Assembly (NCBI RefSeq): GCF_019704315.1
Contig: NZ_AP024597.1
Location: 1,302,001-1,366,000 of the forward strand
DNA: 64,000 bases
Source of the DNA: Stygiolobus caldivivus
GTDB lineage: Archaea; Thermoproteota; Thermoprotei_A; Sulfolobales; Sulfolobaceae
Direction: 5' to 3'
The translations under genes were made by a program, and so were the position numbers. This document shows positions 5,277 through 27,345 of the stretch, in pieces (the first letter of the stretch is position 1; every line of letters starts with the position of its first letter). The notes under the pieces are model-generated. The model made no database searches. It had not been told where the DNA came from and saw nothing but the letters and a program-made list of their open reading frames with translations.

Positions 5277-6695
5277 TTATTGGTAGGGTAACCTTATGTA
5301 TTTGGCAATAGTGTCCCTCACCTCTTTAGCAGTAGGTCTCGAGTACAAGGAAGGGGTTATCATCTTGAGGACTAACTCCTTTATTTCCGGCTCGAGCGTG
5401 TCCAAAACCGGCGGGTTCCAGTTACTGAGTACAGAAGACGAGTAAGAGAGTAACTGCATCACGCGGTCCTTGTCACCCCTCACGTCACTTATAGCACTTA
5501 CTATATACTGCAAGTCGGGCCTCTGGATTTTCGGGTCTAAGATTTTAAGGAAAGTCATACCCAACGAGAATATGTCCATTAAAGGCCTTGCGCCTTTCCC
5601 CTTCACCATGTACTCCACTTCGTCGGGCGGGGAGTATTCCGGTGATAATAACGTTATTTGCTCCCTGATCCTCGTAGAAGCCCCTAAGTCCCCTAACTTT
5701 ACCACCAAGTACTGGGTCAAGTCGGCGTAAAGCTCTTCAGGTGTACTGTAGGGCTTTACGATCAAGATGTTCGCCGGCTTAACGTCTAAGTGTGCATAAC
5801 CCTTACTGTGGATCACCCTTAACGCGTCGGAAACGTAATAAAGGATGTAGTACGCTATATACTTCCAATACTTAGAGGAGGTAAAGGCGGGGTTCTCCAT
5901 GTATTTCTTGAGGTCACCGCCCCTCAAGTACTCCATTACTATGTAAGGCGGGTAAAGGTAGTAGGCCTGCTGGTCGTTGATGTACTCCAGAATATTAGTA
6001 TCTACGTGGACCGCGTAGACCTTTACGATCCTCTGGTCTGCGGACATGGATATTATCGCCGACGCCTCGCTCAAAAGGCTCATTAAGTAAGCCTCTAAAT
6101 TTTCGTAGTCCGATTTGGGGATTTTCACCACGTACTCCTTACCCCTACTCTCTGCCTTAAACACATAAGCCACTCCGCCCTGGCCTAAATAGTCCGCGAG
6201 CCTGTACATCCCTATGACCCTTCCCAGAAGGGATCTCGCGACGACGTCCTGGGGGACGTTGACCTGCTGGTTAGCCGGCATTATGAAAGCCTCTTCGTTT
6301 TTTACGAGTTCTAGGTATTGCCTTATTGGGCCGTGGTCTTGTATGAACTTAAAAAAGGGTATTTGACCACCGCTTACCTCGTCTATTACCTTGTCCTCTA
6401 TAGGGACTAAGTACGCACCGTTTTCACCCACTAAGTAAATCGAGTTTATCTTCATGACAACGTATGAGGAGCCGTTCACCCCAAAGGGGAAGGAAATGTA
6501 GACGTAATCGCCTTGCGGGAAACCCGTTACGTCGAACTTCTTTAGTACGTTTATGACCTCGAAGTTATTCCCAAGGAAGACCGATACACCGGCCAAAATG
6601 TTTAACCTCGAATTAGGGGTCAAATAACCTTTCAATACGTTATATAAAGTCTTAGAGTAAGCGTAGTTACCGCTAACAGGGAGTGCTAACCTCAT
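5277..6695 (-). CDS. Hanks-type Ser/Thr protein kinase, soluble
   Basis: The 472-residue product has a family-unknown N-terminal domain (about 1-155) and a kinase domain (about 160-470). Visible motifs are the glycine loop GQGGVAYV (171-178), the ATP-anchoring Lys191 in YVVKIP, catalytic loop HLDVKPAN (302-309; Asp304, Asn309), GDLGAS in place of DFG (Asp336), SPEYSPPDE in the activation segment and DIFSLGM (374-380). All core catalytic residues are present, so it should be active. HLDVKP is typical of archaeal kinases of this order. There is no membrane segment. A TATA box (TTTATATATT, about 6719-6728) gives a leaderless start. It leads an operon with the gene at 4656-5240. Confidence 0.9.
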   Translation of the reverse strand: MRLALPVSGNYAYSKTLYNVLKGYLTPNSRLNILAGVSVFLGNNFEVINVLKKFDVTGFPQGDYVYISFPFGVNGSSYVVMKINSIYLVGENGAYLVPIEDKVIDEVSGGQIPFFKFIQDHGPIRQYLELVKNEEAFIMPANQQVNVPQDVVARSLLGRVIGMYRLADYLGQGGVAYVFKAESRGKEYVVKIPKSDYENLEAYLMSLLSEASAIISMSADQRIVKVYAVHVDTNILEYINDQQAYYLYPPYIVMEYLRGGDLKKYMENPAFTSSKYWKYIAYYILYYVSDALRVIHSKGYAHLDVKPANILIVKPYSTPEELYADLTQYLVVKLGDLGASTRIREQITLLSPEYSPPDEVEYMVKGKGARPLMDIFSLGMTFLKILDPKIQRPDLQYIVSAISDVRGDKDRVMQLLSYSSSVLSNWNPPVLDTLEPEIKELVLKMITPSLYSRPTAKEVRDTIAKYIRLPYQ

Positions 6696-6782
6696 ACGTT
6701 ATATAATGAACTGTGATTAATATATAAACTTTGTAACTTTCACAAAAGGGTTTTTTCTTCCTTACTCCTTCTTAAAATAAAG

Positions 6783-9176
6783 TCACCTACTCTTCCTCAT
6801 AAGGGCGACTGTAACTAAAAGGCCCGCAACCAGAGAAACCAAGACCACTATTTTTAACATCTGTGAGTCACTACTACTCGTCGTGTTAACGTAATTACCC
6901 GGGCCAAGGGCAAAGCTCTGAGGTAGGGAGACGACGAGCGGGGAAGAGGTCACTAAGACCGTTTCATTTACGACCTTACCGTCATAATATACCGGTACCG
7001 AAGCGTAAGTACCGTTTTTAACGTACAAGACAATAGTCTCCCCGGTAGGTAATTCGTCAATAACTTTATCATAGACTGTGTAATTTAGGAAGTAAGCCCC
7101 GGGGTGAGTGATGTCCACCGGGCTGAAGACATAAGTGTAATTACCTATACTCACATTACCGGGGGTGAAAAGCCCGCCTTCAGGCAACAAGGCGCTAATA
7201 GTACGGTTGAGGTAATGTACCTCCACGAGGTAATAAACCATGAAATGCCCTTCGAGGCTCACGGTTTGCGGGGAATTAACAGTTAAGGTGAGGGGCTTTT
7301 CAACCACAAACACCACGTAATCATTAACGGTTATATTACTCGTAAGGTCAACAGTACTCCCACGCTCATAAAACACGTGTACAGAATAGTTCCCTAAAAC
7401 AAACGTGACACGGTAGTAAACTGTGACGTTGACCCTTAAGCTTAACGGTGATAAGACCTTTACCTTGTAATAACTTGAATTAATTATGACTATCGTGGTA
7501 GAGTTCCTGAGCTCTTTAGGCAGCGATATGCAGTAGCCTTTCGGGTAAAAGCCGGGTCTGGGTAACTGGTTTACGTAAACGCCATTATAAAGGAATTTCA
7601 CGTAGTAGAAGACCTTCGTAAGCAAATTTATCTCCCCTCCTTCTCCCCCTTCTCTTACTTTGACAGTCTGGTTGAGCACTTCTACTAGAGTGCCGTTAGG
7701 GAACGTAATGTTCTGTTCAGGGACATATACTGAACTTCCCACTGTAAAGTACATGGAACTTACGTGGTAAACGCTCCCGTCATACTCTACCGTTATGTTA
7801 TAAGGGAACCTAATGAGGTATTGGAGTTGGTAGGTCGCGGTATAGACGCCGGGGGACTCGGCACAGACTACGTCGCTCTGGGCCACACTACCGTTATCGA
7901 GTAAGACACCGACCAGTTTTAACCTCGAGTCGTTTAAGTAATAACACTGCGGGAACTCTATTTTAAGCGGGCCTTTAAAGGGGATATAAAACACGTAATA
8001 GCCCCCTTCCTTAGTATAATTAGTAAATTTTTCCCCGTTAACATATAATGAAGGCACTTCAGACTTCACTACGACGTAGGGCTTGACGACTATGTTTTTA
8101 AAAGTCTTCTCATAAAGTAGGGTTTGCCCTACCGAGAGAAAGACCGTAATATTATACTCCCCGTAAGGCAGTCCTATTTCGCTGGAGTTTACGGGGAATA
8201 CCTTACCGTTTATCTCATAAGACCACTCCCCATAGGCGGGGACTAAATTGAACTCCACTTTCGAATAATTGACCACTGTGATATTAGCGGAAATGTCCCA
8301 TAACTCCCCGTAATAATTATTCCCAGCCGTCTGGACTACATAACCGTTATCATAATACTCATATATACCTTGAGCTGACTCAGCGGTTATATAGGAATAA
8401 GATATAGCAGAAGGTACCTCGTAATACCTACCGTCGTATAAATAGAGTAGCATCATTTTAGAAGACCAGTTGTAAACATAGAGTGTTGAAGCACTCCCCC
8501 CGCCTCCGATTACGAGTTCTACGTCCGCCCGTGTAGGGTAGTCTATGTTACGTCCTACTATAAAATACGCTTGAGAAGAGGGGTTTAAGACCCTTACGTC
8601 GTCGTAAACGAACTCTTGCGAGAAGTCGCTATTGGTAAGTATTGCGATGAACCTTAACTCTATATACCCGGACACTACACTAACGTTCGAGATCAACGTT
8701 ACGTTAAACGGGGGCCTTAACGTTATGTTTTGAGGGAAGGCGTAAAAGTAGAAGTAGGTGTCCGAGGTGTTAGGTGCTTTACATACTTCCCCATTTCCTT
8801 CGACAGCTGACGGTATAACCGTGTATGGTGGTGTCAGGTTCCATAAATTGTCCACGAAGCTTATCGTATACGTCCCGTTACCGTTTGCGATTACTACCAA
8901 AACGTTCTGGACGAAGTAGCAATAAATACCGTTGGTCAAGACCGTGTTAAGTTGTACTGAGGCGACGTTATAGTTTACGGGTTTACCTGAGTAGAAAGAC
9001 CCCCCGTAAAATATGAAGTACCCCTTAACTGATGTTGTATTATAAACGTAATTCTGACCTTGACTCGTTAACCCTATGTCGTTTATCCCTATTGCGGACG
9101 CTGAAGAGTGGAGGGCCGAAATGAGAAATAATAATGACGTCGTCATCACGATAAAGGCAATGATCAGCCGGTTCAC
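6783..9176 (-). CDS. Thermopsin-family surface protein, membrane anchored
   Basis: The 797-residue product begins with a signal peptide (residues 1-28) and carries a thermopsin-type (peptidase A5) domain at about 30-320. The diagnostic PxGIxDYG element appears as IGINDIG; SVQLNTVL, CYFVQNVLVV and SFVDNLWNL match the conserved strands seen in the two other thermopsin-like proteins of this window. The remainder is a long beta-rich region, and a C-terminal helix (IVVLVSLVAGLLVTVALM) followed by RKSR anchors it. Thermopsins are acid proteases of Sulfolobales; whether this variant motif is catalytic is uncertain. It starts at a GTG (9174-9176) with a TATA-like TTTAAATC about 25-30 nt upstream. The intergenic gap to the kinase at 6695 is 87 bp, and that gene has its own promoter. 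Confidence 0.8.
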   Translation of the reverse strand: MNRLIIAFIVMTTSLLFLISALHSSASAIGINDIGLTSQGQNYVYNTTSVKGYFIFYGGSFYSGKPVNYNVASVQLNTVLTNGIYCYFVQNVLVVIANGNGTYTISFVDNLWNLTPPYTVIPSAVEGNGEVCKAPNTSDTYFYFYAFPQNITLRPPFNVTLISNVSVVSGYIELRFIAILTNSDFSQEFVYDDVRVLNPSSQAYFIVGRNIDYPTRADVELVIGGGGSASTLYVYNWSSKMMLLYLYDGRYYEVPSAISYSYITAESAQGIYEYYDNGYVVQTAGNNYYGELWDISANITVVNYSKVEFNLVPAYGEWSYEINGKVFPVNSSEIGLPYGEYNITVFLSVGQTLLYEKTFKNIVVKPYVVVKSEVPSLYVNGEKFTNYTKEGGYYVFYIPFKGPLKIEFPQCYYLNDSRLKLVGVLLDNGSVAQSDVVCAESPGVYTATYQLQYLIRFPYNITVEYDGSVYHVSSMYFTVGSSVYVPEQNITFPNGTLVEVLNQTVKVREGGEGGEINLLTKVFYYVKFLYNGVYVNQLPRPGFYPKGYCISLPKELRNSTTIVIINSSYYKVKVLSPLSLRVNVTVYYRVTFVLGNYSVHVFYERGSTVDLTSNITVNDYVVFVVEKPLTLTVNSPQTVSLEGHFMVYYLVEVHYLNRTISALLPEGGLFTPGNVSIGNYTYVFSPVDITHPGAYFLNYTVYDKVIDELPTGETIVLYVKNGTYASVPVYYDGKVVNETVLVTSSPLVVSLPQSFALGPGNYVNTTSSSDSQMLKIVVLVSLVAGLLVTVALMRKSR

Positions 9177-9686: not shown

Positions 9687-9862
9687 GGGAGTGTTCTCAA
9701 ACAGTCACCAAATTCGATAAGGATTTGTAAAAATAATAGAGTATTTATAAAAACTATCCTTTCTATTACTACTTGCTGGAAAGAGCTAGAAGTAATGAGA
9801 GCAAACATTACTGTAGAAACACTTATGTGCAAGGGTCACGAGATTTTAAGGGGGTCTACGAG

Positions 9863-10213
9863 ATGAACCTCGTAACCCTTGCACAATTAATACTCTTAGT
9901 TTTAAGGGATTTAAATTTTAAGCCGAGAAAACACGAGCCGGAAGACCTCGCTTACACAATAGCAGCATACTTACTAGGAGTACAAGTCACCAAGTTAGGG
10001 ATACCGCCATCAACACTATACTACTACACTAAAAAACTCGGGGTAAAGAGGAGGAGAGAAGAAAGGCCACCTTGCCCCTCGTGCAAATCAAACAGAGTAG
10101 TAAAGGACGATCAGCTAGAGGAAAAACAAAATACAAGTGCAAAACTTGCGGGAAGACGTCCTACCAAGCGACAAACCACAAGATGGGTAAAGAACAAAAG
10201 GAGAGAGTACTGA
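9863..10213 (+). CDS. IS1-family transposase, upstream frame (InsA-like)
   Basis: The likely start is the ATG at 9863 (MNLVTLAQLILLVL). The frame encodes a helical DNA-binding region and the first half of a zinc finger, CPSC, near residue 73. The second CKTC half lies in the overlapping -1 frame, which shows that the functional transposase is a frameshift fusion. The slippery run is AAAAAC at 10122-10127; IS1 of E. coli uses A6C for -1 frameshifting. Alone, this frame would make a short DNA-binding protein that may repress transposition, as InsA does. Confidence 0.75.
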   Translation: MNLVTLAQLILLVLRDLNFKPRKHEPEDLAYTIAAYLLGVQVTKLGIPPSTLYYYTKKLGVKRRREERPPCPSCKSNRVVKDDQLEEKQNTSAKLAGRRPTKRQTTRWVKNKRREY

Positions 10214-10812
10214 AAGAATACACGAATAGGATGAGCATGAGGGGGATAGCGAGGGTCGAAGGGAAACCGTTAACTACAATATACAGCTTTATAAGGAGGA
10301 AAGGGGTAGAAGCGTATGCTTACCTACTACTCTTGCAAGGACGGCTGGAGGGTTTCACGGCAAAAGCTACAGTGCTCGACGAGAGTTGGACTTACGTGTG
10401 GGCCAGACATGGGCGAAAGAGGGAAGACTTGTGGGTATGGAACGCGTTGGCAGATGGTGTGCCCTTCTTTATCACGGGTGATAGGGATTACATGACTTTC
10501 AGCTCCCTCCAGGACCCCCTACCCGAGAGTAGGGTGTACTACACTGACGGTTATTCAGTTTATCAAGTACTCGACAAACACGTTGTGGGTAAAGAGTATA
10601 CTTACACTGTGGAGAGTTATCATTCTTACTGTAGGGCCCACTTGGCTAGGTTGGCAAGGGACACGAGGGCTGTTAACAGGGACGTGGGGATAGTCGAGTA
10701 TAGTCTTGCCTTGTTGAATGTCATGTACCCGGTAGTTTACTCGAGGGAGAAAACTCCGTTGAACGAGGCTTACTTGAAGGGGATACACTATATTAGAAAT
10801 AAACTGATATAA
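10072..10812 (+). CDS. IS1-family transposase, catalytic frame (InsB-like)
   Basis: This frame supplies the second zinc-finger pair (CKTC) and the DDE-type catalytic domain. VLDESWTYVWARHG matches DEQWGYVGAK of E. coli InsB, YYTDGYSVY matches WMTDGWPLY, and TVESYHSYCRAHLARL matches RIERHNLNLRQHLARL, giving Asp, Asp and Glu as catalytic residues. It is probably expressed as a fusion from the ATG at 9863 through -1 frameshifting at 10122-10127, not from its own start. Copies B and C encode nearly identical proteins. Confidence 0.85.
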   Translation: MPLVQIKQSSKGRSARGKTKYKCKTCGKTSYQATNHKMGKEQKERVLKEYTNRMSMRGIARVEGKPLTTIYSFIRRKGVEAYAYLLLLQGRLEGFTAKATVLDESWTYVWARHGRKREDLWVWNALADGVPFFITGDRDYMTFSSLQDPLPESRVYYTDGYSVYQVLDKHVVGKEYTYTVESYHSYCRAHLARLARDTRAVNRDVGIVEYSLALLNVMYPVVYSREKTPLNEAYLKGIHYIRNKLI

Positions 10813-11118
10813 TATTACAAACACTTATCGAATTTCATGACTGTTTGAGAACACTCCCTGACGGGGGATAACCTTAGATAATAATTTTTTAGCATATTGT
10901 AGACAAATTGTTGGTATAAAAGTTTTTTCATATTTGGAGATAGTGATAAAAACCATATAAACGGTGATGACTAGCTCAATCCTATCGTAAATTGAAATTA
11001 GAACCACACTGCACTTGGACTAAGTAAAATTTTTAAATAGATCTTGTCTCGAGGGAATGATCAGGTGTGTCTCCCCGAGAGTTTTATTTATAAGCCTTTT
11101 TCTGCCATATATTTACTC

Positions 11119-11769
11119 ATGGCAAAAGTTTGCCCTAGTTGCGGTTTCTCGAATGGCGACGACGCCCCGTCTTGCCTAAAATGTGGTTATCCACTATCGG
11201 ACGTCGTCTTGGCTGAGCTACCGATAGCCATAGGTGATGACGGGAAAAACGCCTTTACTATCCAAATAACGGGGAAAAGCTTAATAATATCGAGGAATGA
11301 TGCCGTAAAGGTCCCATTTAGCCCTAGCAAAAAAAAGCTTAACGCGTTATTGGGTATTTCGCTTGCGGAGTTCACCGCGATCGTACTAGTGTCGCTTATT
11401 TTTAATTTCACCCCCGGGATAATAGTTAGTTTCCTCGTAGCGGACGCACTACTACTATTACCAATTCAAGGTAGTAAAACGGGCGACTTATCCAGTTTTA
11501 TAAGGCAACTCCAGTTAGAAGGGCAAAGGTTATTTATAATGAAATACGAAACCCTAGGGAATTGTAACGGTTGCGAATTCTTATACAAGGACAGCCTATC
11601 AGAGTTAGAGATTTCCGGGGACAGCAACTCATGCGTAATTTTCGTCAAGGACGGTAGAGGTAATAAGAGGAAGTTTTATATACCGAACCTCAACCCCTCT
11701 TCGCTATATAACTTCCTGGTAAGGACTGCGTGGAGGGAAAAGTTAGTCATGCGCGCGCGTAAGAGATAG
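11119..11769 (+). CDS. Zinc-ribbon membrane protein
   Basis: I start the gene at ATG 11119, about 28 nt after a TATA box (TTTATTTATA, 11083-11092). The longer frame from 11044 would place that TATA box inside the gene. The 216-residue product begins with a zinc ribbon whose Cys5, Cys8, Cys19 and Cys22 have exactly the spacing of the zinc-ribbon protein at 1904-2938. Two hydrophobic segments follow (about residues 75-117) and then a soluble C-terminal domain. It ends 39 bp before the receptor-like kinase gene on the same strand, though that gene has its own promoter. Function unknown; the context suggests a part in the same surface signalling system. Confidence 0.75.
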   Translation: MAKVCPSCGFSNGDDAPSCLKCGYPLSDVVLAELPIAIGDDGKNAFTIQITGKSLIISRNDAVKVPFSPSKKKLNALLGISLAEFTAIVLVSLIFNFTPGIIVSFLVADALLLLPIQGSKTGDLSSFIRQLQLEGQRLFIMKYETLGNCNGCEFLYKDSLSELEISGDSNSCVIFVKDGRGNKRKFYIPNLNPSSLYNFLVRTAWREKLVMRARKR

Positions 11770-11776
11770 GTAAAAG

Positions 11777-11808
11777 TTTATATAATATATATCACTCATA
11801 GATTAACG
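11777..11808 (+). promoter_or_regulatory. Promoter of receptor-like kinase gene
   Basis: A TATA box (TTTATATAAT, about 11777-11786) lies 25-30 nt before the ATG at 11809, predicting a leaderless transcript for the kinase-phosphatase pair that is separate from the zinc-ribbon gene just upstream. Confidence 0.6.
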
Positions 11809-14800
11809 ATGAATGGAGTACTATTTAAAAGAATAACCCTAATTATGTTAGCCATTATACTCCTAGGAATAGCCCAACTAATGACGTACTCACAAGTGAC
11901 CCCACCGTCTCCCGCGGTAGGCATAGTAGACGAAGGGGAAGCCCCGGTGAGCGGGCAAGGGATCGTAACGTACTCGTACACTTCGTCTAACGTAGGCGGT
12001 ATTTTTACTCTCAACTCAGCACAGACCAGCGGGCCGTTCTCCCTACAGTTAAACTCCGTAATCGCGCTAAGTAACGGCCAGTACTACTGGTCTAATGACG
12101 TCGCCCTGATAAAAAATGTAGGGGGTAACACCTACCAGATAACTATAGAGGACTACTTGTGGAACTTTTCTGCACCCTACTCCAGTATAAACCAAGGACT
12201 GATAAGGGGTTCGGGGGGCGTGGAGACCTATAACGGGATACAGTTCTATTACTATTCCTATAACACTTATACTGTTAGTTCACCCTTCACGTTACTACTC
12301 GAGACCGCTGCGATAATGGGTTACCAAGGTTACCCGGTAGTGTTCCAGTACTTCGAACTGTTGAACAGTAATGGCAGTGAAGTCGCTGGCGGTACATTTG
12401 ATACGATTGAACTGTTTGTCCCTTCTTCCAGTGCGTACATCGTAGTAGGGGGCACTAACCCTACCGGTAGCGGTAATTATTTGTCATTCGTCATAGGTGG
12501 TCCGGTATATGGGACAGAGTTAGGGACTACGGTGGACATATATTCGTGGAGCGCCTCCATGAGTATGGCCTATTTATCCAATTCTGGGAGTACCTTCTAC
12601 AACGTGCCCGGAGGATATTCCACTACCTACGAAGCACTATCTGGAGTTTCGACTTCCCAAGGCATAGTCGAGTCCTTTAGCGGTGAACAAGTAGCACAGA
12701 CGGCCGGACAAACACGGTCAGAATTTTTATGGACCGTGTCTTCGTTTATCAAAGCCTTCGGGAATAACGTCTATATAACTACAATCCCCGGCGGGGCAGA
12801 CTGGGTGTTGAGCGTTTCAGGCCCAGAAAGCTTCTCAAAGAATTTAATAAACTCTACTACAGAACTGTCCTTACCCGACGGCTCTTACTCGTTATCCCTA
12901 TCACTTAACGTCCAAGGTAATACCTTGTACTCAACGTCTTACTCCGTCTCATTACCTTATGCAGTAGAGGTAAGGGTTATCTCTCCCGTGCCCACTTACC
13001 GTGCTAACGGGGTGCCGGAAAACGTAAACACTACGTTATCCTTACCCGTACCCTCAGTACTCCAATTCAACGAGACATATTACTTGTCTAATACAGAACG
13101 TTATTTCCTCCGAGGCGTGGAAGTAAACGGGGCGTTTTATCCCAATACGACGATATATTTGACTACTGCGGGGTTCTACACTATAACCCCCCAATATGTA
13201 CTGCAATACTACTTAAACGTACCGTTCCAAGTCAAGGCCTACGTCAATAACGCCTTGATGACCATAGGGTCTGGCTGGTATGACGCAGGGACTACTATAC
13301 AAGTCCCCCCACAGAACGTAAGCGTTAACGGGGCCCTTTATGAAATACAAGGGACTACTTTCGTAGTGGACTCACCGGACTTCTCGCTACCCTTTGAAAT
13401 CTACTATTACGTCAGTGTGTCACAGCCAATACCGGCAAACGTAAACGGCCTCAACCAGACCATCTCCTCCGGGTATTTTAAAGAAGGCACCACAATCACA
13501 ATCTACAAATACTACTACATCAACTCATCCGCTAGATACGAAATAAACGCCAACCAATACCAGATAACAGTAAGAGCCCCCGTTAGCCTCACAGCCTCCA
13601 CTCAACTCCAGTACCTAGTCACACTTAACCTACCCAACGGTACCGTCACGGAGTGGATCACACAAGGCTCAATACCCACGATACCCTCGATAATACAAAT
13701 ATCCAGCAACGAACGTTACGCCTTAGCCCAAAGCGTCACCGAAGGGATTAACGCCCCCACCACCATCACACCCCAATACACCACACAATACCTCGTGACG
13801 GTAGAACTCCCCAACGGCACGACCCGCTTATGGGTCACACAAGGCTCAACATACGACCTATCCACGACAATACAAATAAACTCCACCACAAGGTACCTAC
13901 TACTCTCCCAACAAGAGTACACCATAAACTCCCCACAAACCCTAACACCCGACTACGTCACCCAATACCTTGTTACACTTAACCTACCCAACGGTACCGT
14001 CACGGAGTGGGTCACACAAGGCTCAATACCCACTGTACCCTCGATAATACAAATATCTAGCGACGAAAGGTACTACCTCAACACGACACTAAGCCCCGTG
14101 TACGGGAGCGAGACGATAACCCCACCGTACGTCGTACAGTACTTAGTCACAATAGGGGACAGCCAAGAATGGGTATCACAAGGCTCAAAAATACCACTAA
14201 ACCAGCCCAACCCCAACCCCTTCGTTAACGTCTACTGGCAAGGCAACGTCAGCGCCCCTAACGGGCAATACATACAAGTCAGCGGGCCCATATCGGAGAG
14301 GCCAGTATACGCCATAAACGTCCTGAGCATACTGCTCCTCGCAGTCCCGTTCGGGGCTGCAGGCATAGGGGGTTACCTAGTGTACAACAAGAGGAAGGAA
14401 GTAGTACTCTCCTTCGACATACCGGAAGGTCTCGCTTCAACTATCAGGGTCAAGGTAAATGGGGACGAGATGGTACTCAAAGGGAGGACACTGAGGGTCA
14501 GGAGGGGTAGTCAAGTGGAAGTAGATGACGTCGTCCACGAAAATACTGTGTTGACCCCGGTCATGAGGAACTTCGTTGCAGGGAAGTCCATGAGGGTAGG
14601 GTTCCAACAGAGGACTCTCGACTTGTCCAAGTTCGACCCCGGACTATGGGTAGGGAGGAGGATAGACTCCTACACTGTAGACAGTGTCATAGGTGAAGGG
14701 GGGACCAGCTACGTATTAAAGGTCATAGGTGCGGACAACAACGTGTACGCCATGAAGGTCATGAAGGTAGTCCCTACACCGGGGAGCACGATGACGATGG

Positions 14801-15594
14801 GCATGAGGAACTTCCAGGAGCTGTATAAAGAGCTTAACAACTTGATTGAACTGTCGACTAAGACGGACGCTGTAGTTAAGGTAGTCGGGGGTAAGGTCGA
14901 CTTCCCTACCCTGATGAACATAATGAAAGGTAACGTGGAGTTGTACTTGACTTCCCCGCCCTACTTGGTCATGGAGTACATGAGCGGGGGTACTTTGTCT
15001 AAGTTAATGGGCAACCCCAATGTCAGGAACTCTAGTGTGTGGGAGAAGATAGTGGTCAGGGTGGTGTATGACGTGGTAAGGGCCTTGTATTTCGTCCACT
15101 CCCAAGGGTATGTACACTTAGACGTGAAGCCGCATAACGTGTTCTTTACTAAGTACCCCGGTGACGTGGGTGATGAGGTGTATAACAACCTAGTTAACGG
15201 GAACACTCAGGTGAAGCTTGGTGACCTGGGTAGTGCGGTTAAGGTGGGTAACCCGGTGACACAGCTGACTTTGGAGTACTGTGCACCGGAGCAGTTGGTG
15301 AACCCGGCGCACCCGAGTATGGACATTTATGCTGTGGGGAGTATGGCTTATGCCCTGCTCACGGGTAAGTACTTTAACGACGTGACCTTGGTCAATAAAG
15401 CGTTTAATGAGCTTTCGACGCCAGCTTTCCAGAACACTTATAATGAGTTGTTGAAGAGGGTGACGGAGAAGTGGGCGTCGTTACCTGATGACGGCTTGAT
15501 GGGGATTATAAAGAAGATGTTGAACCCCGACCCTGCTCAGAGGCCTACGGCGTCGGAGGTGGCCAACATGTTATACTCGTACTTGACGGGGTGA
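11809..15594 (+). CDS. Transmembrane receptor-like Ser/Thr kinase with thermopsin-like ectodomain
   Basis: The 1261-residue product has a signal/anchor helix (residues 8-25) and a thermopsin-like domain (about 36-320: VGIVDEG for PxGIADYG, SLQLNSVI, YWSNDVALI, TIEDYLWNF). A beta-rich region follows with imperfect repeats of the form YLVTLNLPNGT...W(I/V)TQGS (about 600-800), then one membrane helix (about 838-858) and NKRKE as cytoplasmic stop. After a 100-residue linker comes a complete kinase domain (about 955-1261): GEGGTSYV (962-969), Lys983, HLDVKPHN (1103-1110; catalytic Asp1105), GDLGSA (Asp1139), LEYCAPEQ and DIYAVGSMAY. All catalytic residues are present. The architecture is that of a receptor kinase with an outside sensing or protease-like module and a cytoplasmic kinase. 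The next gene, a PPP phosphatase, overlaps it by 4 nt. The final domains are clear; the ligand is unknown. Confidence 0.92.
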   Translation: MNGVLFKRITLIMLAIILLGIAQLMTYSQVTPPSPAVGIVDEGEAPVSGQGIVTYSYTSSNVGGIFTLNSAQTSGPFSLQLNSVIALSNGQYYWSNDVALIKNVGGNTYQITIEDYLWNFSAPYSSINQGLIRGSGGVETYNGIQFYYYSYNTYTVSSPFTLLLETAAIMGYQGYPVVFQYFELLNSNGSEVAGGTFDTIELFVPSSSAYIVVGGTNPTGSGNYLSFVIGGPVYGTELGTTVDIYSWSASMSMAYLSNSGSTFYNVPGGYSTTYEALSGVSTSQGIVESFSGEQVAQTAGQTRSEFLWTVSSFIKAFGNNVYITTIPGGADWVLSVSGPESFSKNLINSTTELSLPDGSYSLSLSLNVQGNTLYSTSYSVSLPYAVEVRVISPVPTYRANGVPENVNTTLSLPVPSVLQFNETYYLSNTERYFLRGVEVNGAFYPNTTIYLTTAGFYTITPQYVLQYYLNVPFQVKAYVNNALMTIGSGWYDAGTTIQVPPQNVSVNGALYEIQGTTFVVDSPDFSLPFEIYYYVSVSQPIPANVNGLNQTISSGYFKEGTTITIYKYYYINSSARYEINANQYQITVRAPVSLTASTQLQYLVTLNLPNGTVTEWITQGSIPTIPSIIQISSNERYALAQSVTEGINAPTTITPQYTTQYLVTVELPNGTTRLWVTQGSTYDLSTTIQINSTTRYLLLSQQEYTINSPQTLTPDYVTQYLVTLNLPNGTVTEWVTQGSIPTVPSIIQISSDERYYLNTTLSPVYGSETITPPYVVQYLVTIGDSQEWVSQGSKIPLNQPNPNPFVNVYWQGNVSAPNGQYIQVSGPISERPVYAINVLSILLLAVPFGAAGIGGYLVYNKRKEVVLSFDIPEGLASTIRVKVNGDEMVLKGRTLRVRRGSQVEVDDVVHENTVLTPVMRNFVAGKSMRVGFQQRTLDLSKFDPGLWVGRRIDSYTVDSVIGEGGTSYVLKVIGADNNVYAMKVMKVVPTPGSTMTMGMRNFQELYKELNNLIELSTKTDAVVKVVGGKVDFPTLMNIMKGNVELYLTSPPYLVMEYMSGGTLSKLMGNPNVRNSSVWEKIVVRVVYDVVRALYFVHSQGYVHLDVKPHNVFFTKYPGDVGDEVYNNLVNGNTQVKLGDLGSAVKVGNPVTQLTLEYCAPEQLVNPAHPSMDIYAVGSMAYALLTGKYFNDVTLVNKAFNELSTPAFQNTYNELLKRVTEKWASLPDDGLMGIIKKMLNPDPAQRPTASEVANMLYSYLTG

Positions 15595-16463
15595 GAGGCG
15601 TGACGGGAGACGAGGTAGAGAAAATATTAGAAAGTGCTAAGGACATATTCAGGCAACAAGGGAGCTATATCGGGAAAGTTAACGCTGAAAGGGTACTTTT
15701 CATAGGGGACACCCACGGTGCGGTCAACGTCACAGACGTCGCTAAATACTATTATGACAAAGTCGACCTGATGGTGTTCTTAGGGGACTACGTGGACAGG
15801 CAACCGCCCAACGGGATCGAGAACCTGCTCACGGTACTCAACCTTTTGGTCAACGACGGGGGTAGAAAGGTAATCGTCCTGAGGGGTAACCACGAGAGCC
15901 CCCTCACCAACTACTACTACGGTTTTTATAGGGAAGTAAAGGAAAAACTCGGTGAAGGTTATTACCCTAAATTCGTAGATCTGTTCTCGTTGATGCCCGT
16001 AAGCGTGACAGTCAACGGTTATTTCTGCACCCACGGTGGGCTGCCCGGGCTCTACAACAGCAACGGTGAAATGGAGTTGGGGATATACAGTGAAGACGAC
16101 TTGTATGGACTGCCTAAAGGCGACATAATCCCCGACGACCCGATACTTTTTCAACTTCTGTGGAACGACCCAAACAGTGCCATAGACTACTTCTCGCTAA
16201 ATAAGAGGGGAGAGGGGGTCTTCTACTTCGGCAGGAAGGTGACAGAAGACTTCTTAGTGAGGACTAACTTCAAGGGTGTGATAAGGGCTCATGAGACTGC
16301 TGACGGGTTTAAGGTAGACCATAACGGGAGGGTGATTACGGTGTTTTCGAGCATTTATCACAAACAGAGGGCGGGGCTATTATTTTTAAACAATGTCGGC
16401 GAGTTCTCTAGACTGTATATAAGCCAAGACGGGAGCGCACAAATAGTCCAAGGGCTTTACTAA
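15591..16463 (+). CDS. PPP-family Ser/Thr protein phosphatase
   Basis: The 290-residue product starts at a GTG that overlaps the kinase stop (GTGA), so translation is probably coupled. It shows the PPP metallophosphatase signature: GDTHG, GDYVDR, GNHE, THGG and a distal RAHE, which supply the two-metal centre and the phosphate-binding Arg and His residues. The usual VDRG is VDRQ here. Its length fits PP1/PP2A-type catalytic cores. Placement directly after a receptor kinase suggests it reverses that kinase's phosphorylations; this pairing is inferred from the operon. Another GTG at 15600 is a possible start. Confidence 0.93.
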   Translation: MRGVTGDEVEKILESAKDIFRQQGSYIGKVNAERVLFIGDTHGAVNVTDVAKYYYDKVDLMVFLGDYVDRQPPNGIENLLTVLNLLVNDGGRKVIVLRGNHESPLTNYYYGFYREVKEKLGEGYYPKFVDLFSLMPVSVTVNGYFCTHGGLPGLYNSNGEMELGIYSEDDLYGLPKGDIIPDDPILFQLLWNDPNSAIDYFSLNKRGEGVFYFGRKVTEDFLVRTNFKGVIRAHETADGFKVDHNGRVITVFSSIYHKQRAGLLFLNNVGEFSRLYISQDGSAQIVQGLY

Positions 16464-17220: not shown

Positions 17221-18645
17221 ATGATCAGAATAGGTAGTAGACCGTATAAGGTTCTAAAGAACTTCCTAGGTACGGCGGTATTAATAATCTTTCTAATATC
17301 ATTTACTGCAATTATTAACCCTCCCTTAATCTCTAATGCCCAGCCTACACAGAATAGTTCAGCGACAACGACGTTAACTACTTCTACGGGAAAAGTAGAA
17401 GTGGGCTCCGTATCCGTACCTATTATCGGAAATATTAACATTTGTGTAGAGGCTACGTATTGTATTGATGGACAGCTAACCGGTCCCTCAGAGGTAATAC
17501 CTGGTTCTACTTATAATTATAGCCTGACTTTAGACAATGCTAAACTTCACGTCATCGTATTTGCTGACGGGGACTCAGTCTCTGATACAGTACCCGCGCA
17601 TTTAGGCCAACTAATATGCATACCCGTCACCGGATTTAGTTTACCCGGTTTGTCGCTCTGTTTAGATGTAGATTTTACTACGTCAGCTACGGCCAATGTC
17701 AGTGTTATCGGAGACGCGACTGCTAATGTCCAAAGTTTACAGATCATAAGGGAAGGCACCAGTACATTTAGCGTGAGTGTAAACCCGAGTTTTTCCGGGG
17801 ATAATAACCTTACCGTGAACGTACCTGTAGCCGTACACCTCGTTTTTGCAGGGGCATCAGTAACAGTATCCATAGTTGGCCAAAAGTATGGCCCTTACAG
17901 TATAGGTCACTATGACTTTGGTTCACGTACTCTTACCCCTACTCTGCAAGTTAGCTCCGCGCCACTTTACAAAGTAGAGTTTGAAGCGAAAGGTATCGGG
18001 AATTACGTCCCTTGGTCAGTGGACATTAACGGACAAAACTATACCTCAACTAATGACAGCATTACTGCCTTATTACCATACGGGAGTTATTCCTATTCAG
18101 TCAGTACGGGCTCCCCGTACTACGAAGCGTTAAGCGGGACGGGGACAATCTCCGTGAACCAGAATCAAGTAGTAAACATACAGTTCGAAGAACTCTACCC
18201 TGTGACGTTCATTGAGGAAGGGCTACCTAACGGTACTACTTGGCAAGTGACCCTAAACGGTATGACCAAGACGTCGACCAGTAACGAAATCGTTTTCCTC
18301 GTCCCTAGCGGGACATACTCCTATTCAGTGTCGGCCAGTTCAGCCATGTTCACACCATCACAAGGTAGCGGGACGATTAGCATAAATGGTAACCGAATAG
18401 TCGTCGTGCAGTTCCAGCAAGTAATTACTACCACACAGCCAAACCAAGTGTTCACGTCAAATAGTTTCTCCAGCAGCTCTAATCAATTCATGAGCTCTAA
18501 TCAATTCATGGCACCTCCATCTGGCGGGGTAGAACAAGTTGAAAGCCCGTCGCCAAGTGGATCTCTAAACATTAAGGCGATAATTCTGATAATACTAATA
18601 GTAGCACTAGGGGTAGTGTTAGTTCTTTGGTTAATAAGGAAATAA
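17221..18645 (+). CDS. Secreted membrane-anchored surface protein with Ig-like repeats
   Basis: The 474-residue product has a signal peptide with a long basic N-region (cleavage near residue 40, after ISNAQ) and a Ser/Thr-rich segment. A beta-rich domain of about 170 residues follows, then two related C-terminal beta repeats. The second, beginning YPVTFIEEGLPNGTTWQVTL, is of the type often attached to thermopsins and other archaeal surface proteins. A Ser/Gln/Asn-rich stalk leads to a C-terminal membrane helix (IILIILIVALGVVLVLWL) and RK. In the stalk an 18-bp unit encoding SSNQFM is duplicated in tandem (about 18475-18510). No catalytic motif was seen; probably a surface binding or structural protein. 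Confidence 0.75.
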   Translation: MIRIGSRPYKVLKNFLGTAVLIIFLISFTAIINPPLISNAQPTQNSSATTTLTTSTGKVEVGSVSVPIIGNINICVEATYCIDGQLTGPSEVIPGSTYNYSLTLDNAKLHVIVFADGDSVSDTVPAHLGQLICIPVTGFSLPGLSLCLDVDFTTSATANVSVIGDATANVQSLQIIREGTSTFSVSVNPSFSGDNNLTVNVPVAVHLVFAGASVTVSIVGQKYGPYSIGHYDFGSRTLTPTLQVSSAPLYKVEFEAKGIGNYVPWSVDINGQNYTSTNDSITALLPYGSYSYSVSTGSPYYEALSGTGTISVNQNQVVNIQFEELYPVTFIEEGLPNGTTWQVTLNGMTKTSTSNEIVFLVPSGTYSYSVSASSAMFTPSQGSGTISINGNRIVVVQFQQVITTTQPNQVFTSNSFSSSSNQFMSSNQFMAPPSGGVEQVESPSPSGSLNIKAIILIILIVALGVVLVLWLIRK

Positions 18646-18668: not shown

Positions 18669-18774
18669 CTGTTGCAGAATTACTTATTAGTCAGGCTGTC
18701 CTAGAGCGATCCTGCAAATATGAGCACAGAGAGTGTTCTCAAACAGTCATGAAATTCGATAAGTGTTTGTAATA

Positions 18775-19515
18775 TTATATCAGTTTACTCCTAATATAGT
18801 GTATCCCCTTCAAGTAAGCCTCGTTCAACGGAGTTTTCTCCCTCGAGTAAACTACCGGGTACATCACGTTCAACAAGGCAAGGCTATACTCAACTATCCC
18901 CACGTCCCTGTTAACAGCCCTCGTGTCCCTTGCCAACCTAGCCAGGTGGGCCCTACAGTAAGAATGATAACTCTCCACAGTGTAAGTATACTCCTTACCC
19001 ACAACGTGTTTGTCGAGTACTTGGTAAACTGAGTAACCATCAGTGTAGTACACCCTACTCTCGGGTAGGGGGTCCTGGAGGAAGCTGAAAGTCATGTAAT
19101 CCCTATCACCCGTGATAAAGAAGGGTACACCATCTGCCAACGCGTTCCATATCCACAAGTCTTCCCTCTTTTGCCCATGTCTGGCCCACACGTAAGTCCA
19201 ACTCTCGTCGAGCACTGTAGCTTTTGCCGTGAAACCCTCCAGCCGTCCTTGCAAGAGTAGTAGGTAAGCATACGCTTCTACCCCTTTCCTCCTTATAAAG
19301 CTGTATATTGTAGTTAACGGTTTCCCTTCGACCCTCGCTATCCCCCTCATGCTCATCCTATTCGTGTATTCTTTCAGTACTCTCTCCTTTTGTTCTTTAC
19401 CCATCTTGTGGTTTGTCGCTTGGTAGGACGTCTTCCCGCAAGTTTTGCACTTGTATTTTGTTTTTCCTCTAGCTGATCGTCCTTTACTACTCTGTTTGAT
19501 TTGCACGAGGGGCAA
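18775..19515 (-). CDS. IS1-family transposase, catalytic frame (copy B)
   Basis: The 246-residue catalytic frame is nearly identical to that of copy A, with the same Asp (VLDESW), Asp (YTDGYSVY) and Glu (TVESYH) and the CKTC half of the zinc finger. It differs at a few residues shared with copy C (GQKREDLWIWN, TFSFLQD), so B and C are closer to each other than to A. Expression requires the upstream frame, which is disrupted here. Confidence 0.8.
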   Translation of the reverse strand: MPLVQIKQSSKGRSARGKTKYKCKTCGKTSYQATNHKMGKEQKERVLKEYTNRMSMRGIARVEGKPLTTIYSFIRRKGVEAYAYLLLLQGRLEGFTAKATVLDESWTYVWARHGQKREDLWIWNALADGVPFFITGDRDYMTFSFLQDPLPESRVYYTDGYSVYQVLDKHVVGKEYTYTVESYHSYCRAHLARLARDTRAVNRDVGIVEYSLALLNVMYPVVYSREKTPLNEAYLKGIHYIRSKLI

Positions 19516-19723
19516 GGTGGCCTTTCTTCTCTCCTCCTCTTTACCCCGAGTTTTTTAGTGTAGTAGTATAGTGTTGATGGCGGTATCCCTAACTTGGTGA
19601 CTTGTACTCCTAGTAAGTATGCTGCTATTGTGTAAGCGAGGTCTTCCGGCTCGTGTTTTCTCGGCTTAAAATTTAAATCCCTTAAAACTAAGGGTATTAG
19701 CTGTGTAGGGTTACGAGGTCCAT
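19440..19723 (-). pseudogene. Broken upstream transposase frame (copy B)
   Basis: Relative to copy A, the sequence after the ATG (19721-19723) has lost one base within the first dozen codons, so the frame stops after eight codons (ATGGACCTCGTAACCC then CTACACAGCTAA). The rest of the zinc-finger region is still present in the right frame downstream, so only the N-terminus is lost. Confidence 0.6.
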
Positions 19724-19907
19724 CTCGTAGACCCCCTTAAAATCTCGTGACCCTTGCACATAAGTGTTTCTACAGTAATGTTTGCTCTCATTACTTCTAG
19801 CTCTTTCCAGCAAGTAGTAATAGAAAGGATAGTTTTTATAAATACTCTATTATTTTTACAAATCCTTATCGAATTTGGTGACTGTTTGAGAACACTCCCT
19901 GAGCACA

Positions 19908-25380: not shown

Positions 25381-25641
25381 AACCTAATATAAAGCAATGT
25401 TTTTAATCGACTACTTTTCCATCATCTGTTATCTAACTGGACGACGAAGCGGGCTTGAACTCCTCAGGGAGTGTTCTCAAACAGTCACCAAATTCGATAA
25501 ACAGTTGTAAAAATAATAGAGTATTTATAAAAACTATCCTTTCTATCACTACTTGCTGGAAAGAGCTAGAAGTATAAAGGCAAACATTACTTCAGAAACA
25601 CTTATGTGCAAGGGTCACGAGATTTTAAGGGGGTCTACGAG

Positions 25642-25842
25642 ATGAACCTCGTAACCCTTGCACACCTAATACTCTTGGTTTTAAGATAAAATTTTAAGCC
25701 GAGAAAACACGAGCCGGAAGACCTCGCTTACACAATAGCAGCATACTTACTAGGAGTACAGGTCACCAAGTTAGGGATACCGCCATCAACACTATACTAC
25801 TACACTAAAAAACTCGGGGTAAAGAGGAGGAGAGAAGAAAGA
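25642..25842 (+). pseudogene. Broken upstream transposase frame (copy C)
   Basis: Compared with copy A a 3-bp loss turns the codons after LLVLR into AGA TAA, ending the frame at 25687-25689 after 15 codons. The downstream part of the frame remains readable, so copy C probably cannot make a full transposase. Confidence 0.55.
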
Positions 25843-25847
25843 CCACC

Positions 25848-26582
25848 GTGCCCCTCGTGCAAATCAAACAGAGTAGTAAAGGACGATCAGCTAGAGGAAA
25901 AACAAAATACAAGTGCAAAACTTGCGGGAAGACGTCCTACCAAGCGACAAACCACAAGATGGGTAAAGAACAAAAGGAGAGAGTACTGAAAGAATACACG
26001 AATAGGATGAGCATGAGGGGGATAGCGAGGGTCGAAGGGAAACCGTTGACGACAATATACAGCTTTATAAGGAGGAAAGGGGTAGAAGCGTATGCTTACC
26101 TACTACTCTTGCAAGGACGACTAGAGGGTTTCACGGCAAAAGCTACAGTGCTTGACGAGAGTTGGACTTACGTGTGGGCCAGACATGGGCAAAAGAGGGA
26201 AGACTTGTGGATATGGAACGCGTTGGCAGATGGTGTACCCTTCTTTATCACGGGTGATAGGGATTACATGACTTTCAGCTTCCTCCAGGACCCCCTACCC
26301 GAGAGTAGGGTGTACTACACTGATGGTTACTCAGTTTACCAAGTACTCGACAAACACGTTGTGGGTAAGAGGTACACTGTGGAGAGTTATCATTCTTACT
26401 GTAGGGCCCACTTGGCTAGGTTGGCAAGGGACACGAGGGCTGTTAACAGGGACGTGGGGATAGTTGAGTATAGCCTTGCCTTGTTGAACGTGATGTACCC
26501 GGTAGTTTACTCGAGGGAGAAAACTCCGTTGAACGAGGCTTACTTGAAGGGGATACACTATATTAGGAGTAAACTGATATAA
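25848..26582 (+). CDS. IS1-family transposase, catalytic frame (copy C)
   Basis: The 244-residue frame keeps the zinc-finger half CKTC and the catalytic Asp, Asp and Glu (VLDESW, YTDGYSVY, TVESYH). It lacks two residues before the Glu (GKRYTVESYH against GKEYTYTVESYH), very near the active site, so activity is doubtful even if supplied in trans. Confidence 0.75.
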   Translation: MPLVQIKQSSKGRSARGKTKYKCKTCGKTSYQATNHKMGKEQKERVLKEYTNRMSMRGIARVEGKPLTTIYSFIRRKGVEAYAYLLLLQGRLEGFTAKATVLDESWTYVWARHGQKREDLWIWNALADGVPFFITGDRDYMTFSFLQDPLPESRVYYTDGYSVYQVLDKHVVGKRYTVESYHSYCRAHLARLARDTRAVNRDVGIVEYSLALLNVMYPVVYSREKTPLNEAYLKGIHYIRSKLI

Positions 26583-26628
26583 TATTACAAACACTTATCG
26601 AATTTCATGACTGTTTGAGAACACTCCC

Positions 26629-27345
26629 TTATCCAGTTTTTACTTTCCTATTCACTTTTAAACCCCATTTATTCACTCGCCCACGAGTTAGCCAATAACG
26701 GTCTCTTATCACTCCAAATAGAAGGCGACCCACCATTAGTGGTGTTAAACGTAAATTACACAAAAATAATAGTCAACGGGACTAATATATTGACTGACAA
26801 CCCCGTTCACTTTCATTTCGGAAGTCAATAACACTTTACGAGTCCTCGTCCCAGCCGGTAACGAGACTTATTTAGGCTTCGAGTCAAACGAGAGCATAGT
26901 GATAGGAATAACGTACGGGAAAAAGAGCATAGCGTCGGTCAATTTACAGCCGTATACCGCAGAGGTGTTCAAATTGTCGAACCTGAGCCTGCTCAAATTC
27001 AATAGCAGTATTGAAATTAACGAGACCGGTATATCAGAAGTCCGAGGGGCAAATAACATTTCGTTCTTATGGATCTCTAACGGTGAATTACCCGTAGTAG
27101 GCCTCCCGCCGGGTAAATATAACATAACTAATACGAAGATAACGGAAACGGTAGTAGTACAGAACGTGACCAACACCTATCCGCAACCGGTATACACGGG
27201 TGGCGAGATAGCACCGGGAGGGATTGGTGAAATAGCCCCGCCTCCGCCTAATACAGAACAGCCTAATTATATACCGGTGATCCTACTTATAGTCCTCATG
27301 GTGTGCTTAGTCATAGTCTTAGTGATGATGAGGAAAAGGAAATAG
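26629..27345 (+). pseudogene. Surface-protein gene fragment truncated by IS copy C, with frameshift
   Basis: Directly after the IS terminus an open frame without a start codon encodes the end of a signal peptide (FLLSYSLLNPIYSLAHE) and about 60 residues of a beta-rich exported domain, then stops at TCAATAA near 26830. One base shift near 26810 links it to the frame that continues as EVNNTLRVLVPAGNETYLGFE and runs to 27345. The C-terminal part (readable from a GTG at 26899, 148 residues) ends in a proline-rich stalk, a membrane helix (PVILLIVLMVCLVIVLVMM) and RKRK. The whole looks like a single-anchor surface protein inactivated by loss of its 5' end and a frameshift. Confidence 0.65.

Follow-up and report, generated by a model that had tools for sequence, protein, structure and literature searches.

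A thermopsin-like ectodomain joined to a Ser/Thr kinase in Stygiolobus caldivivus: a putative archaeal receptor kinase with an overlapping PPP phosphatase gene

We have identified in Stygiolobus caldivivus a gene that joins a thermopsin-type ectodomain, one predicted membrane helix and a complete kinase domain in a single polypeptide, and that is overlapped at its stop codon by the gene for an extra PPP-family phosphatase. The fusion is probably a lineage-specific receptor Ser/Thr kinase, in which a pseudo-protease head binds a ligand, the kinase signals inside the cell and the co-encoded phosphatase resets the system. The thermopsin-family head, having lost its probable catalytic glutamate, would bind an extended peptide or a glycopeptide/glycoprotein outside the cell and leave it uncut. 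By way of its repeat stalk and single membrane helix this state would reach the juxtamembrane segment and an active kinase, with dimerisation or ligand-dependent clustering as the probable means. The extra PPP, made from the same mRNA via the 4-nt overlap, would reset the kinase or its substrates. More tentatively, and with somewhat less than an even chance of being right in all its parts, the system may be an independently built archaeal receptor kinase-phosphatase pair with a disabled glutamic-type protease head and its own duplicated PPP, and thermopsins may be Gln/Glu-type rather than aspartic proteases.

Little is understood of how Sulfolobaceae-type archaea use phosphorylation to sense their surroundings, and we know of no ligand for any Sulfolobaceae membrane kinase. 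A single-chain receptor kinase that combines a defined putative binding domain with a linked phosphatase offers a tractable test case, and the fusion suggests that thermopsin-like surface proteins can act as receptors. When the thermopsin family was reviewed in 2013 (Rawlings, PMC3842238), neither its structure nor its mechanism was known; the models described below also offer a testable hypothesis on its fold and active site.

The window, that is, the whole stretch of 64,000 nt that was analysed, lies in a genome of the family Sulfolobaceae that consists of one contig of 2.96 Mb. Coordinates of the fusion, its parts and its neighbours are collected in Table 1.

Table 1. Features of the fusion gene and its surroundings (positions in the window)
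Feature	Position	Strand	Basis
Soluble kinase, 472 aa, adjoining the stand-alone ectodomain paralogue	5277..6695	-	Pfam Pkinase E 6e-27
Stand-alone ectodomain paralogue with signal, thermopsin domain and repeats, ending in a helix and a very short basic tail	6783..9176	-	Pfam E 3e-39; homology to fusion ectodomain
Zinc-ribbon protein with membrane hairpin, just upstream of the fusion	11119..11769	+	Sub-threshold Pfam zinc ribbon; alignment
TATA-box-like element TTTATATAATATATA, last base 18 nt 5' of ATG	11777..11791	+	Read from sequence
Fusion receptor-kinase gene, 1261 aa	11809..15594	+	ORF, ATG start; Pfam Thermopsin and Pkinase
Signal/anchor helix, residues 1-27	11809..11889	+	Hydropathy
Thermopsin-like domain, residues 31-271 (modelled span 27-322)	11899..12621	+	Pfam; AlphaFold2
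Tandem beta repeats, unit 59 aa (177 bp), membrane-proximal ectodomain	13608..14055	+	Tandem Repeats Finder; motif scan
Predicted sole membrane helix after the signal, about residues 836-856	14314..14376	+	Hydropathy; sequence
Predicted cytosolic juxtamembrane segment, residues 864-945	14398..14643	+	Alignments
Ser/Thr kinase domain, residues 955-1255	14671..15573	+	Pfam; motifs
PPP (PP1/PP2A-type) phosphatase, 290 aa, extra copy	15591..16463	+	Pfam; PDB sequence matches; motifs; copy count
Secreted membrane-anchored beta protein, weak PEGA-like match, 3' of the phosphatase	17221..18645	+	Weak Pfam

The fusion frame runs through its 3.8 kb without an internal stop. Its N-terminal part matches the Pfam family Thermopsin (PF05317; E=3e-23, 83 bits against a cut-off of 25, profile positions 11-244 of 256), and its C-terminal part matches Pkinase (PF00069; E=5e-33, 115 bits against a cut-off of 31.7). 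The kinase motifs are complete, comprising GEGGTSYV (Gly loop), AMK983 (Lys), HLDVKPHN (HxD), DLG (DxG), APE and the Arg, and by profile and catalytic motifs the domain is a Hanks-type Ser/Thr protein kinase. Between the thermopsin domain and the membrane helix lies a beta-repeat region of about 500 residues, in which the tandem repeats scored 398 in Tandem Repeats Finder. Membrane helices were predicted by hydropathy only, and orientation by hydropathy and charge. YNKRKE directly C-terminal of the helix follows the positive-inside pattern, and 15 N-glycosylation sequons fall within residues 29-838, which together is consistent with the N-terminal part lying outside and the kinase inside. The layout is that of a single-pass receptor kinase, with a folded ectodomain, one helix and a cytosolic kinase, helix and orientation being predicted. 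The first-pass annotation had described just such a thermopsin-kinase polypeptide with receptor topology, and both descriptions are supported. The TATA-like element suggests that the fusion has its own leaderless or near-leaderless promoter, from which fusion and phosphatase would probably be transcribed as a bicistronic, near-leaderless mRNA.

Thermopsin and kinase domains share a frame in one of 31 Sulfolobaceae genomes, among the thermopsin matches listed for all 31 and with kinases taken from the same genomes. Uniqueness was judged from the domains in the loci that were fetched, and from coordinates and open-frame lengths elsewhere. The longest other thermopsin reading frames examined, five of 1131-1257 aa, were all without a kinase, and among the matches listed a 397-genome sample of the phylum held no further thermopsin candidate longer than these. 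A scan of named genomes returned distant bacterial kinases only, the viral contigs searched gave no match, and the plasmid matches, among those listed, were confined to the kinase domain. The profile search that had been named beforehand as a check yielded no second case of the fusion in the other genomes searched.

Relatives of each half are found separately. The closest ectodomain relatives in other genera, about 35% identical, stand alone; in each a signal helix precedes the thermopsin domain and its repeats, and a membrane helix closes the C-terminus. In a tree of 54 kinases, rebuilt without the long branches that had disturbed a first version, the fusion kinase groups with L012 (support 98/98), a soluble kinase that stands alone in another genus and is itself on a long branch. 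Alignments show that the juxtamembrane segment is common to the fusion and L012 and in part to other Sulfolobaceae kinases. Since the ectodomain relatives stand alone and L012 is a stand-alone kinase that shares the juxtamembrane segment, each half also occurs without the other, and the two meet in the fusion at the membrane boundary. A junction between two separately existing proteins, on a single contig, argues against an assembly artefact that joined two genes, which had been named as one outcome that would overturn the finding. Such an artefact would draw on the singleton status of the fusion alone and would have to produce a continuous 3.8-kb frame with a biologically sensible junction; we consider it very remote. 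Across 60 distinct related kinases, the fusion has 831 residues between helices and the next largest has 118, while 18 of the 60 have no predicted membrane helix; the fusion is the sole kinase with a large ectodomain among them. We regard it as a probable lineage-specific receptor kinase made by gene fusion, an unusual architecture among archaeal membrane kinases and so far a singleton.

AlphaFold2 models were computed from 42 family sequences in each case. Residues 27-322 of the fusion were modelled as an all-beta domain (pLDDT 92.2, pTM 0.90), as was a genuine thermopsin (pLDDT 95.8, pTM 0.93), namely L041 in genome G016, which we take to be authentic S. acidocaldarius thermopsin. Two proteins stand among the top PDB structures of both models: HC7 (8pn5; probability 1.00, TM about 0.49, E no higher than about 1e-4) and neprosin (7zvc; E 4-8e-4, TM about 0.32-0.37). 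Little else in either list is credible; that of the fusion model is headed by 4qhw, a putative sugar hydrolase (TM 0.34). For both models the probability of a fold match to glutamic-type proteases is 0.99-1.00. HC7 and neprosin are the nearest solved folds to the fusion domain and to true thermopsin, at a TM of only about 0.5 and 0.3-0.4, respectively, and with no sequence similarity detected. A sequence search of the PDB and a profile search of it with the thermopsin alignment gave no solved structure related by sequence. According to the models, the fusion ectodomain has the same fold as genuine thermopsin, both being confidently all-beta with common top PDB neighbours, so that the N-terminal domain does not lack the thermopsin fold. 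The first-pass annotation had gone too far in calling this fold unique to acidophilic archaea: the family is archaeal, and its predicted fold is nearest to bacterial HC7 and plant neprosin. Separately, the model of thermopsin itself resembles glutamic-type proteases in fold, at odds with the usual aspartic classification.

Candidate active-site residues were compared in a 45-sequence alignment, using thermopsin numbering. Gln109 is invariant in 45/45 family members, the fusion included. At position 259, 42 of the 45 sequences have Glu, two have Gln and the fusion alone has Ser (residue 226); a second alignment agrees on this column, and the stand-alone ectodomain relatives in other genera still carry Glu or Gln there. 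Furthermore, Glu305 has become S278, Gln128 has become N96 and Asp257 corresponds to a gap, while Asp129, Asp144 and Asp228 are retained. The catalytic candidates given by Rawlings (PMC3842238) are Asp129, 144, 228, 257 and 302, Gln109, Asn111, Gln128, Asn148 and Glu305, and a glutamic type was thought unlikely because thermopsin is pepstatin-sensitive. SsMTP-1, a related enzyme, is pepstatin-insensitive (PMC3958906). HC7 has been described as a di-glutamate mucinase (PMC13003899), and neprosin has the catalytic pair E188/E297, at whose positions SCP-B has Q107/E190 (PMC9343461). From the fold match and the conservation, we propose that Gln109 and Glu259 may form the catalytic dyad of thermopsin.

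It had been argued earlier that the ectodomain may bind peptides rather than cut them, with the Asp of GIVDEG as the conserved Asp of the thermopsin motif. That residue aligns with Ser60 of active S. acidocaldarius thermopsin (GIASFG); it is thus not essential for catalysis, was rejected as a catalytic residue and does not figure among the candidates of Rawlings. The conclusion itself can be kept on the four changes at positions 259, 305, 257 and 128. Because Glu259 and Glu305 are uniquely lost and Asp257 and Gln128 are absent, the ectodomain is likely a pseudo-protease sensor that binds peptides or glycoproteins, the fold neighbours suggesting a peptide or glycopeptide as the class of ligand. 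Since the catalytic residues of thermopsin have never been proven, loss of proteolysis is something we infer from sequence. Alternatively, the domain could still be an active acid protease tethered to the kinase, digesting surface peptides and signalling inward through binding or self-cleavage. The retained equivalents of Asp129, Asp144, Asp228 and the invariant Gln109 would fit such an enzyme, and purification of one multidomain S. solfataricus thermopsin, itself membrane-predicted, has yielded an active protease (PMC3958906); we nevertheless think it unlikely given the loss of the near-invariant Glu259 together with conserved Glu305, Asp257 and Gln128, and should the glutamic-type fold match imply a Gln/Glu dyad, the domain would lack its catalytic Glu.

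Compared with the thermopsin family (MEROPS A5 / PF05317; thermopsin, SsMTP, SsMTP-1), the putative sensor shows a full-length domain match and the same predicted all-beta fold, and it shares with multidomain thermopsins the order of signal, thermopsin domain, repeats and C-terminal membrane helix. It differs in having a kinase in place of a short cytosolic tail and in the loss of several conserved acidic residues. A signalling role has been proposed for the related multidomain thermopsins by the authors who characterised them (PMC3958906).

The gene behind the fusion encodes a PPP-family phosphatase, as judged from its Metallophos match (PF00149, 84.5 bits), its sequence matches in the PDB (best E about 1e-27, PP1/PP2A-type) and a full set of metal-ligand motifs (GDxHG, GDxVDR, GNHE and two further His). 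Its GTG start overlaps the fusion stop by 4 nt (GTGA, within GGGTGA), as the first-pass annotation had noted; translation might instead begin at another GTG in the same frame, at 15600. At the threshold used, 30 of the 31 Sulfolobaceae genomes have one PPP homologue and the fusion genome has two, which are 55% identical, the extra copy being the one behind the fusion; a tree of PPP sequences gave no clear origin for the duplicate. Relative to archaeal PP2A/PP1-type PPPs (Saci PP2A, SiRe_1009), the linked enzyme is alike in its roughly 55% identity and all metal-ligand motifs, and differs in being a second copy with a kinase rather than an arnA-like gene as partner. In most other Sulfolobaceae, as seen at 15 loci, the single PP2A-type gene stands directly 3' of an ArnA-like gene for a zinc-ribbon + FHA protein, which it usually overlaps by 4 nt, the two making up a phospho-reader/phosphatase operon.

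The 4-nt overlap is therefore not special by itself, the normal PP2A-type gene overlapping the arnA-like gene likewise in most relatives examined: tight overlap is a habit of the PPP gene, and the new element is the kinase as its partner. The tight coupling of kinase and phosphatase genes noted earlier is supported, and on stronger grounds than were then known, since the sole duplicated PPP of this kind in the family lies behind the fusion. PP2A of S. islandicus dephosphorylates various autophosphorylated kinases (PMC5682000), and only PTP and PP2A have been reported as protein phosphatases in S. acidocaldarius (PMC7472852), which makes a linked off-switch plausible. The same breadth of S. islandicus PP2A, along with the ordinary overlap, would also suit a phosphatase that is a mere operon mate, functionally unrelated to a receptor kinase that uses the general PP2A. 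This is compatible with the receptor reading and has a fair claim to attention, but we doubt it, the duplicate PPP being present only where the fusion exists and directly behind it.

Three IS1-like elements in the window (9687-10860, 18727-19899 and 25467-26629) are 96-98% identical and have terminal inverted repeats of about 49 bp. An IS composite transposon around the fusion was rejected: the right copy (18727-19899) has its own 8-bp target duplication, TGAGCACA, and the outer flanks differ. The fusion might nonetheless be a recent, non-adaptive event in an IS-rich region, with little or no function. Its occurrence in one genome only, the IS1-like copies on both sides and the top rank of this genome in kinase matches would agree with that. 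We find it improbable, however, for neither half is damaged and every kinase and phosphatase motif is present, the parts have diverged too far (35% and 43% identity to the nearest relatives of ectodomain and kinase, respectively) to be fresh copies, the junction lies at the membrane boundary and the gene is coupled to an additional phosphatase that is itself intact.

On the other strand, the ectodomain paralogue and the soluble kinase (5277-9176) correspond to the fusion in unfused form; each appears to have a promoter of its own, that of the kinase including an apparent TATA box. Thermopsin and kinase genes show no enrichment within 3 kb of each other (P=0.20) and a weak one at 5 kb (P=0.01, a figure that includes the fusion itself and one genus-conserved pair), and a general thermopsin-kinase gene neighbourhood is not convincing. 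The zinc-ribbon protein just upstream was discarded as an ArnA, having only the zinc ribbon in common and no FHA domain. A defence system was also dismissed, the PADLOC and NCBIfam matches reflecting generic kinase similarity far under the NCBIfam cut-offs.

PASTA receptor kinases of bacteria pair with a partner phosphatase (PP2C). The fusion resembles these PknB/Stk kinases in its type-I-like receptor layout and linked phosphatase gene, and differs in its PPP-type rather than PP2C phosphatase, its unrelated sensor and its lack of PASTA repeats, none of which were found in a Pfam scan; the NCBIfam PASTA-kinase model covers the kinase part only, at 59 bits against a cut-off of 450. Membrane ePKs of Sulfolobaceae (SiRe_0101, SiRe_2056 and the S. 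acidocaldarius kinases) are alike in kinase domain and juxtamembrane segment. Those Sulfolobaceae ePKs that were examined either are soluble or have several helices, with no more than about 118 residues between them, whereas in the fusion the signal is followed by an ectodomain of 800 residues and a single predicted helix.

With 18 kinase matches, the fusion genome exceeds every other Sulfolobaceae genome searched (3-13 each), and several of the 18 group together in the tree, which indicates a kinase expansion. A five-kinase cluster of a different type, apparently unlike other Sulfolobaceae kinases, occurs in genome G022 (L124, L125; G022:C1:744000-780000), where one of the kinases is part of a protein of 1387 aa that has TPR-like matches and lacks membrane helices.
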